Of a DNA stretch of 25,720 nt, positions 2,079 through 24,867 are shown piece by piece. Source of the DNA: a virus; the IMG/VR virus record IMGVR_UViG_3300046656_000751, positions 1 to 25,720 of that record, one strand, 5' to 3'. The position numbers and the translations under genes are program-made. Numbering within the stretch: the stretch's first letter is position 1; the number at the start of each line of letters is the position of its first letter. The notes beneath the pieces are model-generated. The model had not been told where the DNA came from. It made no database searches and saw nothing but the letters and a program-made list of their open reading frames with translations.

Positions 2079-3767
2079 ATGGCAAATAGCATCGGGCCTC
2101 TTGGCTTAACCACCAATACACAAGCAGAATTATTAGCTAATCTAACTACATTATTTCAAAATATTTATGGCGCGGACATTGTCATCACATCTAATTCCCC
2201 AGATGGACAGCTCATAAATGGATTCATCCAAGTCATCTTAGATGATCAAGATTTATTGACTCAAATCTATAACACCTTTGACCCAGACAACGCTGTGGGT
2301 GTGATCTTAGATCAGAGAGTTGCTATCAATGGGATCCAGAGACAAGCAGGCACTCTTACCGTTACCAACATCACAATCGTAACAAATCAATCCGTGAACC
2401 TTTACGGCTCAGATCAGAGTGTGCAACCGGTCTACACCGTCTCAGATAATGCGGGGAACTTATGGGAATTAGGGACCACGCAGATTGCTGTCCCTACGGG
2501 CACTAACGTCTTTGCATTCCAGTCTGCCGTAACAGGAGCAATTACACCTCTTCCTAATACCTTAACCATCCAAGTCACCATTGTTCTCGGTGTAATCTCT
2601 GTGAATAACCCAACCGCTTATACGACATTGGGAACCAATGAAGAATCGGATGCGGCACTCAAGATTAGACGCCAGAAATCAGTCTCTCAAGCCTCTCAGG
2701 GATATTTGAAGGGATTGCTCGCAGCTTTAGAAAATATCAACGGAGTGACCTCAGCGTTCGTCTATGAGAATGATACGAGTGTCACGGATATCGATGGAGT
2801 ACCGGGGCATACGATTTGGGTGATCATTGCCGGATCTCCTGACAATGTCGATGTAGCAACCGCGATTTATGAGAAACGAAATGCGGGATGTGGGATGTTT
2901 GGCCAGACCTTTTACAATGTGATTCAAGTTAACAGTACTTCATTTACGGTTTATTGGGATTACGTCACTCCTCAGAACCTATTCATCGCCTTCACTGCGA
3001 CGTCCATTGACGGGATCAATCAGCCCGCAATAGCAAATATTAGATCGGGTCTAGTCACTAACTTCGTGCCGGGAGTATTTCAGGAAGTGAATATCAATGA
3101 GATCGCAACTCAGGTGCAGGACATAGACCCTAATACGCTTGTGACGAATTGCGGGTTAAGTAATGGTGGGATGCAGATTGCTACCCTCTCAGGAATAGCA
3201 GCGAGTGGGTCATTTGTTGTGAATTACAATGGCGATACCTCAGCAGCGATTAACTGGAATGACTCGATATCGACGATTCAAAGCAAGGTACAGGCTATCA
3301 CGGGACTCACCTCGGCTCTCGTTACGGGAAGTATTGCGAGTCAGACTTTGAATTTTAATTTATCAGCGATAGTAAATATTTTTGGTCTCATCTACGTTAC
3401 GAGTAATACGTTACAAACAAGCTTAGCAGTGCCGATCACGTTTAGTTTCAATGAGGATTATCAAGATATCTTAACTCCAACGAGTAAGAGTTTACAATTC
3501 GCCATCGCCTCGGGAAATATCATCATCCTTCCCATGATCCTAAGCCCTACGACCTCAACGGTATCGGTTACTCAGAGTGAGACATTTGTGGGGTTGGGGG
3601 GGTATGGAGATTATACATATTCATTATTTATTGATAACTCAGGTGCGACGGTCAATAGCTTGAGTGGGCTTTACACTGCGGGCTCTACGCCTAACGTGAC
3701 AGATACAGTCAAAGTTGTGGATGTATTTGGGAACTCCGCTATAGCAACCATTGCGGTTACCACATGA
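2079..3767 (+). CDS. Baseplate J-like protein with an inserted beta module and Ig-like tail
   Basis: 562 residues. Residues 1-360 are a baseplate J/gp6-like wedge component (DGQLINGFIQVILD, then VILDQRVAINGIQRQAGT, NEESDAALKIRR, and an acidic turn near residue 240). Residues about 370-460 are an extra beta module (SGSFVVNYNG...AAINWNDS...VTGSIASQ), and after it the J sequence resumes (LQFAIASGNIIILPM). Residues about 486-562 are an Ig-like domain ending in SGLYTAGSTPNVTDTVKVVD. The inserted module recurs in the protein at 4558. The stop codon overlaps the ATG of the next gene (ATGA at 3764), so the glycosyltransferase that follows is translationally coupled. The protein should bridge the baseplate wedge and the outer, possibly host-contacting surface. 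Confidence 0.85.
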   Translation: MANSIGPLGLTTNTQAELLANLTTLFQNIYGADIVITSNSPDGQLINGFIQVILDDQDLLTQIYNTFDPDNAVGVILDQRVAINGIQRQAGTLTVTNITIVTNQSVNLYGSDQSVQPVYTVSDNAGNLWELGTTQIAVPTGTNVFAFQSAVTGAITPLPNTLTIQVTIVLGVISVNNPTAYTTLGTNEESDAALKIRRQKSVSQASQGYLKGLLAALENINGVTSAFVYENDTSVTDIDGVPGHTIWVIIAGSPDNVDVATAIYEKRNAGCGMFGQTFYNVIQVNSTSFTVYWDYVTPQNLFIAFTATSIDGINQPAIANIRSGLVTNFVPGVFQEVNINEIATQVQDIDPNTLVTNCGLSNGGMQIATLSGIAASGSFVVNYNGDTSAAINWNDSISTIQSKVQAITGLTSALVTGSIASQTLNFNLSAIVNIFGLIYVTSNTLQTSLAVPITFSFNEDYQDILTPTSKSLQFAIASGNIIILPMILSPTTSTVSVTQSETFVGLGGYGDYTYSLFIDNSGATVNSLSGLYTAGSTPNVTDTVKVVDVFGNSAIATIAVTT

Positions 3768-4561
3768 TCACTTCCTTACAGAGACAAAAGAAGATTGCAG
3801 AGAGTCGCCACAAGAATTTGGGGATTAGTATTACCGCAAATGGAATTGGGGACTCGTTACAATTTTCATCTCTGCCGGAGAACTTTTACAATGTGACGGG
3901 ATCCAAACTAATTGACGTCTCGAAATGTTGGTTCTTTGATCATAACCCCTATGTGGAAAGAGATCAGACACCCGTTAAAGTAACGGAGATGTGGAATTTC
4001 CCAAAAAAATACGAATGGCCTAATGTCAGACATAGCGTTTATATGAGTAACGCTGAGATTCATTTAGCAGTCTTCGGGCTAAGGAATCCAAAATTAATCA
4101 GACCGAGGCTTTATCAATTTGAAGAGTACCCTGCTCATTTGCGTTACAAGATTCTATTCCAGACTCAGGGCAGGAGCCATGGGAAGTTACCGGATCCCAT
4201 CATTGAGCACGTCCTTAAGAAATACAAATACGCGAATTTATATCATATCGGATTGCCCACTGATCCTGATCTAGGGATCCCAAAAATTGTAACGTCTACC
4301 TTATGGGATCTTGCGCGGGAGATATCACAAGCTAAGATGGTCATTTGTCCTGACTCAGGTCCATCATGGATCGGCGCCTGTTATCCCGATGTGTGGGTTA
4401 AAAAAATAAGAACACGCTTCCAAGGAGGGTACTGTGATCCGAAGGATTGGGTACCGCTTGATGTGAAGAATCACCATTCGTTTTGGGATGATCGGTCGAC
4501 TCAAATCTACAATACCTTCGAAGAGGATGTGGGATTCACACTCTCATATAAGAAAATATGA
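3764..4561 (+). CDS. Glycosyltransferase family 9-like (heptosyltransferase fold) inside the baseplate operon
   Basis: 265 residues, shorter than the ~330-350 of classical LPS heptosyltransferases. Two diagnostic regions are visible: a glycine turn NGIGDSLQFSSLPENF at residues 26-41, and the C-terminal donor-site region TLWDLAREISQAKMVICPDS with GPSW at residues 179-202, which is the family's 'fate of the DSG loop'. Known members transfer sugar from a nucleotide donor; the donor and acceptor here cannot be read. It overlaps by ATGA with the gene before (3764) and the gene after (4558), so it is a fully integrated member of the tail operon. It is unusual to find a transferase between the J-like gene and the DUF2612-like gene, and both neighbours share the same beta module, making them conceivable substrates (inference). 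Confidence 0.7.
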   Translation: MITSLQRQKKIAESRHKNLGISITANGIGDSLQFSSLPENFYNVTGSKLIDVSKCWFFDHNPYVERDQTPVKVTEMWNFPKKYEWPNVRHSVYMSNAEIHLAVFGLRNPKLIRPRLYQFEEYPAHLRYKILFQTQGRSHGKLPDPIIEHVLKKYKYANLYHIGLPTDPDLGIPKIVTSTLWDLAREISQAKMVICPDSGPSWIGACYPDVWVKKIRTRFQGGYCDPKDWVPLDVKNHHSFWDDRSTQIYNTFEEDVGFTLSYKKI

Positions 4562-5499
4562 CGACACTTGAGCTAGTCAATTACTATGCCAACTTACTTA
4601 TTTTGCAATATAAGTCTAAACCAAAAGCGTATAGTACTATGCTTGCATGGGCGAGCCAAGCTGTCATGCCGCAAGTCTCTACTCAGCAAATCAGCTTCTC
4701 CGCTGTAGCGGCTTCTGGACAGTTCATTCTCTCTTATGACGGAATGAATACAGCGGCCATCAATTGGAATGATTCCACACCGACTATTGAGAGTACATTG
4801 CAAGCCATAACGGGTTTAGGTTCTGTGACCGTAACCGGTAGCATCGCTACACAAATTTTAACGATCACCTTTACGGGAGTGATCCCCCCCGCATTCTTAC
4901 TTATTTTAGAATCAAGTACGCTTCAGGATGGCGGAAGTAACGACATCACGATCTCTATTGCTGAGACCGATGTGACGTTACCGATTGCGGTACAAGATGC
5001 TTTTAACTTATTAGGACCGTCCCCTGCTGTCGGAGTGCAATTAGATATTCTCGGTAAATACGCAGGAGTCACGCGTACAGGTAACGGATTTAATGGGCAA
5101 CCCATAACGTTAAGTGACGCTGATTTCTTAACCTTCATTAAGATGGCAATCACGACGAATAGTGCCGGTTCCTCTCTCTCAGATATCTCAAATATCTTGT
5201 ATCAATATTTTGGGATGGGGATTTTAGCTTTTGATTATACCGACATGAGATTGGATTACCTGATCAATTCTTCTATTGGGAGTATTCAATTATTAGAATT
5301 ATTCGTTACTGAGAAATTATTGCCAAAGCCGATGGCTGTAGGGATCTCAGTTATTGTAGCACCTGTAATTGATTCTTTTTTTGGCTTCGTGACCTATGAA
5401 GATCCGGTGCAGTCTCCGATAACGAGGCCCTTTAATGATTATGATAATTACCAAACCAATTGGCCTTGGCTGTCATATGTTTATTCTTTCACACCTTAG
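4558..5499 (+). CDS. DUF2612-like baseplate/tail protein with the same inserted beta module
   Basis: 313 residues. The C-terminal half (AVGVQLDILGKYAGVTR near residues 157-173, then LSDADFLTFIKMAITTNSA) fits the DUF2612 family that occupies the gpI-like position linking baseplate to fibres. The N-terminal ~40 residues (YYANLLILQYKSKPKA) also belong to that family. Between them, residues about 44-140 form a module clearly related to the one in the J-like protein: SGQFILSYDG, AAINWNDSTPTIES, VTVTGSIATQ. The two modules share many positions in protein but are diverged in DNA, so the duplication is old or the modules arrived independently. The ATG overlaps the preceding TGA. Confidence 0.7.
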   Translation: MTTLELVNYYANLLILQYKSKPKAYSTMLAWASQAVMPQVSTQQISFSAVAASGQFILSYDGMNTAAINWNDSTPTIESTLQAITGLGSVTVTGSIATQILTITFTGVIPPAFLLILESSTLQDGGSNDITISIAETDVTLPIAVQDAFNLLGPSPAVGVQLDILGKYAGVTRTGNGFNGQPITLSDADFLTFIKMAITTNSAGSSLSDISNILYQYFGMGILAFDYTDMRLDYLINSSIGSIQLLELFVTEKLLPKPMAVGISVIVAPVIDSFFGFVTYEDPVQSPITRPFNDYDNYQTNWPWLSYVYSFTP

Positions 5500-5508
5500 G
5501 AGAAATTT

Positions 5509-6120
5509 ATGAGTGCATTGACTCGTTATACCCAGCAACTTTTTGGATCTTCAGCAGGCAGTAACCAGATGGCCGAGTACGGTAGCTTAGCTGCTGGCAG
5601 CCCTAACCGTTATAACGGCACAACCATCACGCCTGCCATCATCCAAACACTTTCAGAATATTTAGAAGGTTGGTTCGGGGCGGTAGTAGGTCTCAATAGC
5701 CCAGCCATTGAGGATATGAATGCGCTTTGTTATCTCTTCTCCTATCAGATTGCGTATCTCTTAGAGCGCGGTATCCCCGAGTGGGATGTGGGGACAACGT
5801 ACTTCATCGGCGATATCGTCCAGTCAGCAGGCGTACGTTACGCCTCGATAACGAATACGAATGTGGGGAATGCCGTCACGGACGGTGCAAATTGGTTTAC
5901 CGCAACGGACCCCGGCACTCTTACCGTGAACTCACTCCCCTTCACGGCGGGGATGACGTTACCTGCAAATAAGTCGCTCACTTGGCCTAATATGGAAATC
6001 GGAAACGGACAAACAGTCGTCGTCCCAAATAGTGCTAACCTCATCGGGATCACACAAATTACAGTAAGCGGTACGGGAGTATTAACAGCAACGGGCTCTG
6101 GAATTATTAGAGTCATTTAA
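5509..6120 (+). CDS. Tail fibre/collar-like protein with carbohydrate-binding-like segment
   Basis: 203 residues, good Shine-Dalgarno (AGGAG, 7 bases before ATG). Residues 1-85 look like a particle-binding N-terminus (ITPAIIQTLSEYLEGWFGAV then IEDMNALCYLFSYQIAYLLE). Residues about 89-130 (GIPEWDVGTTYFIGDIVQ, then a Tyr-Ala-Ser-hydrophobic strand and a Trp-Phe) resemble the small aromatic carbohydrate-binding fold often found in fibres and chitinases (CBM5/12-like). The C-terminus is a repetitive beta region. The likely role is connecting the baseplate to the distal adhesin encoded next. Identification is by pattern and position only. Confidence 0.55.
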   Translation: MSALTRYTQQLFGSSAGSNQMAEYGSLAAGSPNRYNGTTITPAIIQTLSEYLEGWFGAVVGLNSPAIEDMNALCYLFSYQIAYLLERGIPEWDVGTTYFIGDIVQSAGVRYASITNTNVGNAVTDGANWFTATDPGTLTVNSLPFTAGMTLPANKSLTWPNMEIGNGQTVVVPNSANLIGITQITVSGTGVLTATGSGIIRVI

Positions 6121-7867: not shown

Positions 7868-8920
7868 ATGAAATATCTTATTATTGCAATGACAATAATG
7901 TGTACTCTTGCGTTTGGAAATGATGATGCCCCCCCAACACAAAAGCATCATCACCAGAAGACTTATCACACGAAGAGATACAAAAGGCATGCAAAAGGTT
8001 TGAGACATCCCCTTGCGGCGCGCAAGATGATGGAAGCCATGACGTGCGTATCCTTCTTAGAGAAGGACTCCCCTATCCCTCAATCTACGGACTTATCAGC
8101 GAAGGTAAGCTTGCCTGAGGATCAGGGCCAGTGTGGATCCTGTTGGGACTTTGCCTTAACAAAAGCGCTTAGGTCCGAATACATGCTTGCTAATGTAGAT
8201 CCCGGGGTCTTAGAATTTAATTATCTCCTTAGTAACTGCGGACCCGGTCCACATATGTATGGATGTCAAGGTGGGGATTTTTCAGCAGCGCATTCCTTTT
8301 TGAGTGGGTCGGGTCCCGGATTAAATTCTCAAAACCCCTATGTTCAGAAGATGACTCAATGTAAGCATTTGCCCGTTCAGGCAACGGGCAATGAATACTT
8401 CATGCTAGGGACGAAACAAAATCCAACCTTCAAAGATATTGCCTACGCTGTCGGAGTAGAGCATCACATGCTCGCCATTGACGTCGCCGCAGGGCAAGGT
8501 GAATGGGAAAGTTACTCCGATGGGATTTACAATCATTGCCGCGGCAAAGCATCCAACATAGACCATATGATTGATTTGGTGGGATACAACTGTGAGACGT
8601 CAGTTGATTCACAAGGCCATTGCTCCTTTGATGCAGCGGGGAAGCCCGTGAATAAAGATGGGTACCTCATTGTGCAGAATAACTGGGGTGAGGATTGGGG
8701 AACTGAAGCAGCGAATGGACATGGGGGTTACATGAAAATCCGCATGTACGGTGAGGATGGATCTAAATGTAATGCGATTGCGACGCATGCGCTCATGTTT
8801 AAGATCAATGCGCCGAGTCCCGTGCCGACGCCTAGTCCATCGCCGGATAATAAGAAGTGCTCAGGTTTCCTATGCTCTACCTTCAGTTGTCATTTACCGT
8901 GGTGCAAATGGGAACCTTGA
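7868..8920 (+). CDS. Secreted papain-like cysteine protease (C1A type)
   Basis: 350 residues. Residues 1-17 are a signal peptide (MKYLIIAMTIMCTLAFG), followed by a His/Lys/Arg-rich segment that may be a short propeptide. The catalytic core is complete: oxyanion Gln86 and nucleophile Cys92 in DQGQCGSCW, a CQGGDFSAA region as in papain's disulfide loop, His233 in IDHMIDLVGYN, and Asn271 in VQNNWGEDWG. Residues about 316-331 are a Pro/Ser linker (SPVPTPSPSP) and the last ~18 residues hold four cysteines (CSGFLC...CHLPWC). It should be exported and disulfide-bonded in the envelope or outside. Such enzymes are rare in phages; roles could be envelope or S-layer degradation, or a conversion factor. 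Promoter and ribosome-binding signals are weak. Confidence 0.85.
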   Translation: MKYLIIAMTIMCTLAFGNDDAPPTQKHHHQKTYHTKRYKRHAKGLRHPLAARKMMEAMTCVSFLEKDSPIPQSTDLSAKVSLPEDQGQCGSCWDFALTKALRSEYMLANVDPGVLEFNYLLSNCGPGPHMYGCQGGDFSAAHSFLSGSGPGLNSQNPYVQKMTQCKHLPVQATGNEYFMLGTKQNPTFKDIAYAVGVEHHMLAIDVAAGQGEWESYSDGIYNHCRGKASNIDHMIDLVGYNCETSVDSQGHCSFDAAGKPVNKDGYLIVQNNWGEDWGTEAANGHGGYMKIRMYGEDGSKCNAIATHALMFKINAPSPVPTPSPSPDNKKCSGFLCSTFSCHLPWCKWEP

Positions 8921-10323: not shown

Positions 10324-10530
10324 TCACATGTCAACATCATGATGATGGTCTTTCAAAGCTTTAAGCACCTTCTCAACTAACTCAAAGCCATCTTCCCTAC
10401 AATTCTCATCGATGCACTGCAGGCAAATCATATCGAGCTCACTTAGGATCTCTTTGATATCATTTTTCCTTCTGTACTTCTGAGTGCGTTCATTGGATTT
10501 CTTGAGTAGGTATTCCTTATTCATCCTCAT
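10324..10530 (-). CDS. Small protein, partner of the RHH gene
   Basis: 68 residues, starting 4 bases after the stop of the ribbon-helix-helix gene, so probably co-translated. The N-terminus is strongly basic (LLKKSNERTQKYRRKND), the middle is helical with two cysteines (MICLQCIDENC) and the end is DHHHDVDM. No family recognised. A second ATG two codons in (10524) is an equally good start; an AAAGG lies upstream. The arrangement of a DNA-binding small protein followed by a second small helical protein resembles antitoxin-toxin or repressor-accessory pairs, but nothing in the sequence establishes that. Confidence 0.6.
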   Translation of the reverse strand: MRMNKEYLLKKSNERTQKYRRKNDIKEILSELDMICLQCIDENCREDGFELVEKVLKALKDHHHDVDM

Positions 10531-10534
10531 AATA

Positions 10535-10726
10535 TCATTTGACCTTTACGGTATTAATCAGGTCACTGAGCAATACCGTTAAGACCTCAGACCAGCTCAG
10601 GTTGCGGGATTTCATGATGTGCTTTGCTTTGTTAACGAGATGAAGCGGTACACGGCCCTGTACCATGACAGTATCTTTTCTTCGCTTGGAATGATCCGGT
10701 AAATTTTCTTCTATATATTTAGACAT
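10535..10726 (-). CDS. Ribbon-helix-helix DNA-binding regulator candidate
   Basis: 63 residues, excellent Shine-Dalgarno (AAGGAG, 7 bases upstream). After a charged N-terminus, residues about 21-58 have the Arc/MetJ-like layout: a strand VMVQGRVPLHLV, then helix KAKHIMKSRN, then LSWSEVLTVLLSDLI. Such proteins bind DNA as dimers through the strand and commonly repress their own and nearby promoters. The palindrome-rich array at 11165-11241 is an obvious candidate operator. It is the first gene of the leftward pair and is followed by the terminator at 10232. The target is inferred. Confidence 0.65.
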   Translation of the reverse strand: MSKYIEENLPDHSKRRKDTVMVQGRVPLHLVNKAKHIMKSRNLSWSEVLTVLLSDLINTVKVK

Positions 10727-10796
10727 TTTTTCTCCTTGTCTATCTCCTTTTTTTTTGGCAGCGTCTAAGCATCCTGGTTGTGTTCATAGTGTATTC

Positions 10797-10837
10797 ATAA
10801 GCTGGGAAGTTTACTTTGCATCCTCTTCCCAGCTTAT
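10797..10837 (-). terminator. Long perfect stem-loop ending the leftward mini-gene cluster
   Basis: A 13-bp perfect inverted repeat (ATAAGCTGGGAAG / CTTCCCAGCTTAT) around a 15-base loop. It overlaps the stop of the leftmost mini-gene. There is no clean T-run on either strand, so it may be an attenuating or RNA-stabilising hairpin rather than a full terminator. Confidence 0.5.
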
Positions 10838-10905
10838 TTAACCCTTAAGTTAATTCTCATCACCATACTGATCGCATCTCTGAATGTGAAAATCACAGTA
10901 AACAT
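10834..10905 (-). CDS. Mini-gene, 23 residues
   Basis: A very short reading frame, MFTVIFTFRDAISMVMRINL and three more residues, with AGGAAGG placed 6-8 bases before the ATG. It follows the 26-residue mini-gene by 4 bases on the leftward strand and ends inside the 13-bp stem-loop. Hydrophobic start, basic end. The good ribosome-binding site and tight spacing are the only support; it could also be a chance frame. Confidence 0.4.
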   Translation of the reverse strand: MFTVIFTFRDAISMVMRINLRVK

Positions 10906-10909
10906 AATA

Positions 10910-10990
10910 CTACCTTCCTGTTAGATGAAAATAAGTAACCATTAAAATGAGTGGGCTCCATAAAATATACGAGATGATTTCTGGGGTCAT
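10910..10990 (-). CDS. Mini-gene, 26-residue membrane peptide
   Basis: A 26-residue frame with an excellent Shine-Dalgarno (AAGGAG, 6 bases upstream) located over the end of the preceding mini-gene. The middle (IISYILWSPLILMVTYF) is a single membrane-spanning stretch. Spacing of 3 bases from the upstream stop indicates translational coupling. Phage early leftward regions often hold such host-takeover or exclusion peptides, but no function can be read here. Confidence 0.5.
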   Translation of the reverse strand: MTPEIISYILWSPLILMVTYFHLTGR

Positions 10991-10993
10991 ACA

Positions 10994-11128
10994 TTACTCC
11001 TTCATGAAATTTTCATAGTTCTTAACTGCTTCATCTAGAAGTCTTTTATACATAGGCTTAGAAACCTCGGAAGCATTCAGATACCAACCTTGAGCCACGA
11101 TAATTGCATTGATATAAATTTGTTTCAT
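10994..11128 (-). CDS. Small leftward early protein, 44 residues
   Basis: 44 residues beginning MKQIYINAIIVAQGWYLNAS and ending in a basic-acidic helix (YKRLLDEAVKNYENFMKE). AGGAAGGG lies 7-9 bases before the ATG, and a TATAAT promoter is about 24 bases upstream. It is the first of three tiny genes in tandem. The N-terminal third is mildly hydrophobic but not clearly a membrane segment. Not recognised. Confidence 0.55.
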   Translation of the reverse strand: MKQIYINAIIVAQGWYLNASEVSKPMYKRLLDEAVKNYENFMKE

Positions 11129-11151
11129 ATTAATTCCCTTCCTATGACTTA

Positions 11152-11180
11152 ATTATAACGCATTCATACAAAATTGTATA
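11152..11180 (-). promoter_or_regulatory. Leftward promoter
   Basis: Read leftward, a perfect TATAAT (plus-strand 11152-11157) lies 17 bases after TATACA (11175-11180), which matches 4 of 6 of the -35 consensus. The -35 lies inside the palindrome TTGTATACAA, so a bound repressor would block it. It would drive the mini-genes from 11128 leftward. Confidence 0.6.
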
Positions 11181-11241
11181 CAAATTTGTATGTTATGTTG
11201 TATGTTGTAATGTATATGAATGTGTATGTTTTGACACATAC
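11165..11241. promoter_or_regulatory. Operator array between divergent operons
   Basis: Half-sites CATACAA/TTGTATG recur: CATACAAA at 11165, palindrome TTGTATACAA at 11174-11183, a 14-bp perfect palindrome ATACAAATTTGTAT at 11178-11191, TTGTATG at 11198-11204, GTGTATG at 11222-11228, and an inverted pair GTATGT/ACATAC at 11224-11241 that straddles TTGACA (11231-11236). The left end covers the leftward -35, the right end abuts the early operon. A -10 for the rightward promoter is ambiguous (TTTATA at 11253-11258 gives a 16-bp spacer but leaves almost no leader). The likely reader is the ribbon-helix-helix protein or a regulator outside the window. Confidence 0.6.
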
Positions 11242-11262
11242 TATAGAAGGGTTTTATACAAC

Positions 11263-12024
11263 ATGAATGCATTATTAGAGAAATCCGATTCGGAAGTAAT
11301 GGAAAGAGTCATCATTGCTGGGGACTTGTCAAAGGTATCGCCACAAGACCGGACTAAGTACTATATGGTTGTTTGTAAGTCGGTGGGACTCAATCCCTAT
11401 ACCAATCCCTTTAACCTGATCACTCTGAATGGGAAGATGGTTCTATACGCATCCCGTACTGCGACGGATCAGTTAAGACAAATTCACAAAGTAAGTATCC
11501 GAGTTACGGGACGCCATAAAGAAGGGGATGTCTATACCGTCATTGCTACCGCAACAACTCCTGACGGGAGAACGGACGAGAGTACGGGAGTCGTAACACT
11601 CACAGGTTTACGAGGAGATGCGTTAGCGAATACCTACATGAAGGCTGAGACGAAAGCTAAGCGCCGAGTCACTCTCTCTATTGTCGGGTTAGGTTGGCTT
11701 GATGAGTCCGAGTCGGATTCCATCCCCGGTGCAAAGAAGCACACCATGGATATCGAGACTGGGGAAGTAAAGGAAACAAAAGAAGCAAAAGAAGTTGTTA
11801 ATGAAGTAGTTAGTCTTCCTTGGAAATTTACTTGGGATCGGATTAACGAGGTATCGAAACAGAAGAATATGACGAAGGACCAGCTAGATACCTTTATTAA
11901 GGGCTTCAAACAACCTAAGAGTGAAGAGGAATATATCAAACTCTTACGCAAGATGAATGAATGGAAGGTGCCTGATGAAAAAAAAATGCCCATTTTGCAC
12001 GGTGCGAATCAAAAAAGGGCTTGA
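11263..12024 (+). CDS. Probable single-strand DNA annealing protein (RecT/Erf-like)
   Basis: 253 residues, AGAAGGG 11 bases before the ATG. The core (LSKVSPQDRTKYYMVVCKSV; GLNPYTNPFNLITLNGKMVLYASRTATDQL; then GLRGDALANTYMKAETKAKR and RVTLSIVGLGWLDE) belongs to a phage family usually associated with recombination; the motif of a conserved Lys/Arg-rich helix before a LSIVGLGW strand recalls Erf, RecT and Rad52-like annealing proteins. Residues about 165-200 are a charged linker and the end is a helical tail. As first gene of the rightward early operon, together with the SSB-like, helicase and RusA genes downstream, it fits phage recombination. The family assignment is by remembered pattern. Confidence 0.55.
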   Translation: MNALLEKSDSEVMERVIIAGDLSKVSPQDRTKYYMVVCKSVGLNPYTNPFNLITLNGKMVLYASRTATDQLRQIHKVSIRVTGRHKEGDVYTVIATATTPDGRTDESTGVVTLTGLRGDALANTYMKAETKAKRRVTLSIVGLGWLDESESDSIPGAKKHTMDIETGEVKETKEAKEVVNEVVSLPWKFTWDRINEVSKQKNMTKDQLDTFIKGFKQPKSEEEYIKLLRKMNEWKVPDEKKMPILHGANQKRA

Positions 12025-24213: not shown

Positions 24214-24867
24214 GTGACTGAATTTAAAGGACACGCTGACCAGAAATTTGGCCACATTACTTATTCTCAAAGCGGAGAGGATTTAATGATCCTCAATCTT
24301 TGTAAGATGATGGGATTAGATAAACCATCTTATTTAGATATTGGAGCTCATCACCCCATTAACATTAGCAATACTGCACTCCTTTATGAGCGTGGATCAC
24401 GTGGAGTGAATGTTGAGGCTAATCCTAATCTGATGGGTGCTTTTTATGAGCATAGGCCATTAGACGTTAATCTTAATTTTGGGGTTGTGATTACAACAAC
24501 GCAATCGGATTGCATCCCCTTTTATTTGGTGGACAAATATTCAGGGCTCAATAGCTTTTTATCAGAGAGCATTGAAGCACATGGATTTCAATGGTCTGAT
24601 AAAATTTACGTTCCAACCATAACGATCATGAATCTCATTCATGATCATTGTAATGATCAATTCCCAGATATCCTGTTCACTGACATTGAAGGGTTAGACG
24701 CAGCGGTATTAGACTCATCCCTTGTAAAAGAATCCCATCCTAAGATTGTATGCTCAGAGCTAAGACATGATGCGCGTGCGATTGAGATGATGGAGCGAAA
24801 AGGGTTTACCCATTATTGCTGCATGGGTGAAAACGATATCTTTATTTGGGACGGGTATATTGATTAG
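24214..24867 (+). CDS. FkbM-family methyltransferase
   Basis: 217 residues, GTG start with AAAGGA 8 bases upstream. YSQSGEDLMIL at residues 17-27, motif I LDIGAHHP at 41-48 for S-adenosylmethionine, VNVEANP at 65-71, and DILFTDIEGLDAAVLDS near residue 150-166 are the FkbM signatures. Members O-methylate sugars or related hydroxyls. It is an inserted function between portal and head genes, probably working with the two glycosyltransferases to cap a sugar on a virion or surface target; that link is inference. Confidence 0.8.
   Translation: MTEFKGHADQKFGHITYSQSGEDLMILNLCKMMGLDKPSYLDIGAHHPINISNTALLYERGSRGVNVEANPNLMGAFYEHRPLDVNLNFGVVITTTQSDCIPFYLVDKYSGLNSFLSESIEAHGFQWSDKIYVPTITIMNLIHDHCNDQFPDILFTDIEGLDAAVLDSSLVKESHPKIVCSELRHDARAIEMMERKGFTHYCCMGENDIFIWDGYID

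Follow-up and report, generated by a model that had tools for sequence, protein, structure and literature searches.

Known GT9 enzymes and virion glycosylation in phages

Enzymes of glycosyltransferase family GT9 are typically LPS heptosyltransferases, with the catalytic Asp in an N-terminal GxGD motif and a donor motif of the type D(S/T)Gxx(H). In mycobacteriophages the glycosyltransferases for the virion are phage-encoded, and to our knowledge phage virion glycosylation is experimentally supported in few groups. A GT9-related enzyme acting on protein Ser is TibC of the TibC/Aah type (BAHT; structures 4rap and 4rb4), with Trp-305 as donor-binding residue and Asp-110 as candidate base, according to PMC4358343. 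For mycobacteriophages, experimental support for virion glycosylation is available, with glycans located at the C-termini of capsid and tail-tube proteins (Freeman 2023, as cited in PMC12619734). While glycans were demonstrated there, the system described here is known from genes alone; neither its position in a baseplate operon between two genes termed J and D nor its pairing with an FkbM-type methyltransferase is mentioned in the passages of PMC12619734 consulted. Among the titles retrieved from the literature, none pointed to a GT9 gene within the baseplate operon of a phage.

Gene order of the baseplate operon

The window, meaning the whole stretch of DNA analyzed, is a 25.7-kb IMG/VR virus contig (25,720 nucleotides), and the features of its baseplate operon and its FkbM gene given below lie on the + strand. 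Its operon runs in the order hub, spike, wedge, J, G, D and tail fibre. The baseplate hub gene (2-889), truncated at the 5' end by the window start, matched phrog_196 (baseplate hub, E 5e-39) and PF22759 (E217 gp41). It is followed by a probable baseplate spike gene (895-1686; PF18352 phage protein N-terminal domain), whose syntenic gene in Bdellovibrio phage phi1422 is annotated as baseplate spike, and by a baseplate wedge subunit gene (1714-2076; phrog_120, E 1e-18), found in the same order as gp64 of phi1422. J (2079-3767) encodes a J-like baseplate wedge protein (phrog_6, E 1e-30; 42.7% identical to phi1422 gp65). D (4558-5499) encodes a DUF2612-like baseplate protein (PF11041, E 1.6e-10), of which the modelled residues 150-267 matched baseplate proteins of XM1 and Pa193. 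Downstream of D a tail-fibre-like gene follows (5509-6120; phrog_20878 tail fiber, E 3e-11). Also in the window, downstream of the tail genes, a papain-family cysteine protease gene was observed (7868-8920; PF00112, E 4e-26).

Between J and D lies G (3764-4561), the gene under study. The ATGA overlaps on both of its sides, already read in the earlier note, were confirmed by the end of J at 3767 and the start of the D reading frame at 4558. Phage phi1422 (NC_019525) shares the hub-spike-wedge-J-D order with the window, and its D is 43.5% identical; however, its J directly abuts D, and neither G nor FkbM was found anywhere in its record.

Fold, family and motifs of G

The G protein (265 amino acids) was modelled with AlphaFold2 on nine aligned sequences, resulting in a pTM of 0.67 and a pLDDT of 70, with the last 48 residues poor. 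Comparing the model by Foldseek, the top matches were TibC (E 6.6e-9), a Veillonella GT9 enzyme (3e-5), WaaC (6e-5) and WaaF (1.6e-4), and all matches at E < 0.001 were GT9-type enzymes. VIA gave Z values of 13.3 for WaaC, 11.4 for the Veillonella GT9 enzyme (3tov), 11.1 for WaaF and 10.6 for TibC; one unrelated entry, 9grx_1, reached 10.7, and the remainder stayed at or below 6.1. Most likely, G is a glycosyltransferase with a predicted GT9 (heptosyltransferase-like) fold.

The sequence of the window protein alone gave no Pfam match, no PHROG match, no match in the PF01075 search, none among annotated phages and no meaningful one in the PDB. Using a relative's G as query, weak Vibrio phage matches were obtained (E 3e-3; 28% identical, query coverage 55%). 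Among 23 diverse G homologues, 15 matched PF01075 weakly (best E 0.0041), 14 matched TIGR02201 (best E 3e-4) and 5 matched TIGR04414, the model for Aah/TibC O-heptosyltransferases (best E 0.0039). TIGR02201, LPS heptosyltransferase III, was thus the best curated NCBIfam model for the family. When the G profile was compared with GT9 enzymes of E. coli, the probability was 12% for a match confined to the DSG motif, while the profile of the 23 sequences reached TibC alone among PDB sequences, at a non-significant E of 1.6. By sequence score the window G is no GT9 member because it lies below the curated PF01075 cut-off. The description of the gene as GT9-like in the earlier note consequently holds for the fold and is weak for the sequence. 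As judged from sequence and model, G probably works like a GT9 glycosyltransferase yet stands outside curated GT9 and BAHT membership.

Across the 23 homologues 29 columns were invariant and further ones nearly so. The invariant residues include G27, G29 and D30 of a GxGD motif (residues 27-30, 3842-3853), D197, S198, G199 and W202 of a DSGPSW motif (residues 197-202, 4352-4369), which is the putative donor-binding site, and W241 and D243 of an HxxWDD motif (residues 238-243, 4475-4492). D30 is putatively the catalytic residue and would be the positional counterpart of the GT9 catalytic Asp; WaaC, WaaF and WaaU have G12 and D13 in common, and the profile comparison of G with GT9 enzymes reached the C-terminal motif only. 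In the donor motif DSG is kept, and the His is replaced by the invariant Trp202.

The GT9 LPS heptosyltransferases WaaC, WaaF and WaaQ (PF01075, TIGR02201) have the GT-B fold in common with G over almost its whole length, and both WaaC-type GT9 enzymes and G possess the GxGD and D(S/T)G motifs. Unlike these enzymes, G is phage-borne and located within a baseplate operon, and His266 of WaaC corresponds to Trp in G. TibC appears to share with G the Trp in place of the GT9 His and a WDD motif; in the non-significant E 1.6 alignment W202 of G falls on Trp-305 and the WDD of G on that of TibC. Differences from TibC are the size (265 versus 406 amino acids) and the N-terminal beta-barrel of about 97 residues, for which G has no room, as its glycosyltransferase fold starts near residue 17 of 265. 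Moreover, G is without a Cys pair before WDD, in contrast to the Cys-bound iron finger of TibC, and the adenine-binding Arg-286 is not conserved, although the alignment itself is weak at this E value.

Distribution, gain and loss of G

The G profile matched 27 viral loci. Of 23 distinct G sequences, 14 lie at the junction of J and D, three in a head slot and three at the terminase side, the others being single cases. Head-slot G genes are found among head genes, before the minor-head genes (L034, L036, L037); the terminase-side ones neighbour the terminase region and are encoded on the other strand (L040, L041, L043). At one locus, L045, G follows D. In L044, a 175-kb record, G lies near a cytidylyltransferase-like gene and an epimerase gene. 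L046 is a contig from a Bacteroidetes MAG; its G was the sole relative in one genome_contigs scan, and at 3 kb the contig is too short to distinguish viral from cellular origin. As side observations, the most divergent G relatives, at 9907-10734 of L045 and 11173-12153 of L044, lie near nucleotide-sugar genes, namely a UDP-glucose dehydrogenase-like gene and the epimerase gene, and in L034 the head-slot G is followed by a gene whose product has a zinc- or iron-chelating CxxCxxCC domain (PF03692, 7765-8247).

For the analysis of the junction, J scans and other loci provided 96 J loci, 87 of them also with D, and 64 distinct phages after removal of near-duplicates. Left out were 9 J loci for which the retrieved sequence contained no D. 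As the best 80 of 220 confirmed J relatives were used, distant relatives are under-sampled, and the records are often fragments. G was located exactly at the J-D junction in 14 of the 64 phages, and no G was found in 47. The G phages thus share with the mycobacteriophage system the trait of a phage-encoded glycosyltransferase coupled with virion genes, and the position suggests corresponding expression. The offset from J to G ranged from -4 to +1 in 13 of the 14 phages with G in this slot (one start was not found), and the coupling from G to D was kept within the same limits in all 14.

On the J tree the state of G changed at least 8 times; G is gained or lost repeatedly at the J-D junction. 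In the G tree the head and terminase versions formed separate, well-supported clades, therefore G mostly stays in its slot. L024 and L025 showed a conflict of both trees: their G falls inside the main slot clade (support 95/95), and their J is no part of the clade that contains the window's J (100/96). Their G therefore probably reached the same junction horizontally. The GC content of G (42.6%) matches the surroundings, hence there is no sign of a very recent acquisition. Of 23 protein clusters compared around J, up to 7 kb before it and 9 kb after it, none besides G's own family tracked G strongly, so no virion protein was singled out as acceptor.

Sporadic presence and repeated gain and loss, together with the exchange of the motif His for Trp, would also fit a simple insert in a permissive junction, a repurposed or inactive enzyme kept for a reason related neither to tails nor to sugars. 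We regard this as quite improbable, given that the 29 columns invariant in such diverse homologues include the putative catalytic Asp, and given the co-occurrence with FkbM described below.

The module shared by J and D

J and D carry a common module of 94 residues with 47% identity (BLASTP, E 2e-19), as the earlier note had seen. Copy 1 is a domain inserted in J (residues 366-459, 3174-3455), where module-less relatives show a clean gap; copy 2 is inserted in D (residues 43-136, 4684-4965), with a clean gap in L002, L015 and L018 and fold matches to Bxb1 tail tip and capsid domains. The noted richness in Ser, Thr and Asn was likewise borne out, with 35% in the J module and 33% in the D module versus 28% and 21% in the rest of the respective protein.

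From these modules the earlier note had suggested a tail-glycosylation cassette, in which the transferase may decorate the modules, and had named co-occurrence of both across phages as a check. Both modules were indeed found in 11 of the 14 phages with slot G, and they are rich in Ser and Thr. Ignoring kinship, the association with G was significant for the J module (Fisher p 0.0013) and the D module (0.013). However, both modules occurred without slot G in 14 of the 64 phages and the D module alone without slot G in 9, so that 23 phages have a module and no slot G, 3 of these with G elsewhere. One phage combined slot G with the D module only, two had slot G with neither module, and 27 had none of the three. 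L039 (G024) has slot G, yet no module across its entire 41.5-kb record; L006 and L048 have both modules and no slot G, but a head-slot G in the same genome.

The association was lost on the tree. Each module trait changed 7 times on the J tree, and among 4 independent pairs with good support and contrasting G states, the J module followed G in 1.1 on average and showed no difference in 2.9, with the pairs being too few for this test to reach 0.05. The Ser/Thr content was not higher in modules beside G (J 0.233 versus 0.263; D 0.259 versus 0.271). In many phages another protein, encoded upstream and about 470-600 amino acids long, also carried the module; among them is phi1422, where it is found in this other protein only (L047, 1536-1820). 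Furthermore, it corresponds to a domain of the unrelated mycobacteriophage Bxb1, found there in three copies in the tail tip cage protein gp23 and in the major capsid protein (profile E 3.6e-20 and 6.5e-7; VIA Z 13.5 and 11.8), that is in capsid, connector-region and tail-tip chains. With its presence in many phages this makes it a general virion decoration domain.

The module comes and goes independently of G, and the pattern that the earlier note had set as a refutation, modules widely without the transferase and the transferase without modules, was the one observed. Consequently, the module as specific target of G was rejected on the basis of the phages without slot G, the tree test and the Ser/Thr content, and specific glycosylation of the modules on J and D is considered improbable. 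The idea that module and G move jointly as a cassette was rejected as well, since L024 and L025 have their G in the main slot clade and their J outside; their J modules show only about 29-32% alignment identity to the window module. The modules are ordinary surface domains, which may or may not carry sugar, and not the defining partner of the system. A tempting but unsupported target is thereby removed. Of the suggested tail glycosylation, the glycosyltransferase co-translated with baseplate proteins remains, with virion glycosylation still leading, while the modules as targets are given up.

Rearrangements around D were observed in two further loci. In L032 (6586-8425) the DUF2612-like gene is split into a module-bearing N-terminal and a C-terminal reading frame, separated by a fibre-like one. 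In L017 (7001-12386) J and D are separated by a fibre-like gene, a short C-terminal fragment of D precedes the full copy, and a second fibre-like gene comes after it.

Lifestyle, host and DNA modification

No integrase (PF00589) was detected in the 9 long records of G-bearing J-family phages; hits above the cut-off came only from L041-L043, which are records of the terminase type, and a J-family record that has no G gave one hit below it. Resolvase (PF00239) was found in 0 of 28 records. Based on their gene content, the G phages look like strictly lytic myoviruses. Lasting serotype conversion is therefore unlikely, and a function of G as serotype-converting prophage gene was rejected. The closest cultured phage is phi1422, therefore a Bdellovibrio-like host is possible.

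Many phage glycosyltransferases modify DNA, as stated in PMC12619734. For G such an activity was rejected and appears very improbable indeed: a thymidylate synthase-type base hydroxymethylase (PF00303) was found in 0 of 17 records, G takes a late structural position, and its fold is nearest to GT9, with the phage DNA alpha-glucosyltransferase chain 1ya6 reaching only a Z of 5.3.

The FkbM methyltransferase and the proposed role of G

The window encodes an FkbM-domain methyltransferase (24214-24867; PF05050, E 1.1e-15), located between portal-side and minor-head genes, which is the slot holding G in L034, L036 and L037. In the record of L039 FkbM likewise occupies the head slot (L112). In the records of L003, L021 and L025 the homologous FkbM is no part of the late operon; it is surrounded by genes of replication type and lies on the opposite strand. 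Behind an RCC1-type fibre gene, FkbM adjoins a second GT9-type gene, which passes the PF01075 cut-off, in L103, L091 and the record of L006 (coordinates of the fibre-side GT9-type and FkbM genes: L109 2657-4335, L103 11978-13724, L091 12213-14486); in L091 one small gene (200 amino acids, function unassigned) lies between the two. GT9-type genes consequently take three late positions, at the J-D junction, in the portal/minor-head slot and behind the tail fibre.

FkbM was detected in 6 records out of 26 in one search and in 2 out of 23 in another. Using the long records of 37 distinct J-family phages, with second-type GT9 genes searched within about 9 kb of J, a GT9-type gene was present in all 8 phages with FkbM versus 5 of 29 without (Fisher 3e-5), and 6 of the 8 carry G itself. 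The FkbM state of L010 was taken from the record behind L008, a near-identical phage. Comparing independent pairs, 3.6 of 4 agreed and none opposed, the pairs being too few for significance in a sign test (0.05). The FkbM methyltransferase, and not the module, is the real companion of the GT9-type genes.

We consider the chances evenly balanced that G, with its GT9 fold, and FkbM constitute a late kit, glycan plus methyl, that acts on virion proteins. Late in infection G would be co-translated with the baseplate proteins and would attach a sugar from a host-supplied nucleotide sugar to Ser/Thr residues on at least one virion protein, and the FkbM-type methyltransferase would afterwards O-methylate this sugar. 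Fold and family motifs of G, its operon position and coupling, gain and loss, module independence and FkbM co-occurrence are results of the computation; G catalysis, the donor, the acceptor on the virion and the order of the two steps we infer. Glycosylation of tail or head in general is the best reading, at about even odds.

Counting against the virion kit are the many relatives without G (47 of the 64 phages), the failure of the window protein to pass a curated GT9 cut-off and the FkbM genes away from the late operon in three phages. The best family match, to LPS heptosyltransferase III, would fit a cell-surface acceptor equally well. G and FkbM may modify the host surface, an LPS or capsule sugar, late in infection, which would save progeny from binding to debris again and exclude other phages. 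For this the usual LPS role of GT9 enzymes, the best NCBIfam match, the sugar genes near G in L044 and L045 and the position of FkbM outside the late operon in three phages can be brought forward. On the other hand, the G-bearing J-family phages are without integrase, and the J-family GT9-type genes lie among or just behind structural genes and are translationally coupled at the J-D junction. Overall, we judge modification of the host surface possible and rather unlikely.

If the kit acts on virions, virion glycosylation would extend to lytic Gram-negative-type myoviruses and be tied to a methyltransferase, and the related phages with and without the kit are material for a direct comparison by mass spectrometry. 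Only tentatively, and with some doubt, we picture lytic, probably predator-infecting myoviruses with a swappable kit of a stand-alone TibC-like protein O-glycosyltransferase and an FkbM sugar methyltransferase in any of three late positions. This kit would give the phage's own tail or head a coat of methyl-capped glycans and would be gained and lost repeatedly on an unchanged baseplate.

In the tail-fibre region of L103 a protein of RCC1 beta-propeller repeats was observed (10348-11922; PF00415, E 7e-56). Such a protein seems uncommon in phages, and RCC1-like repeats are also readable in L091 and L109.
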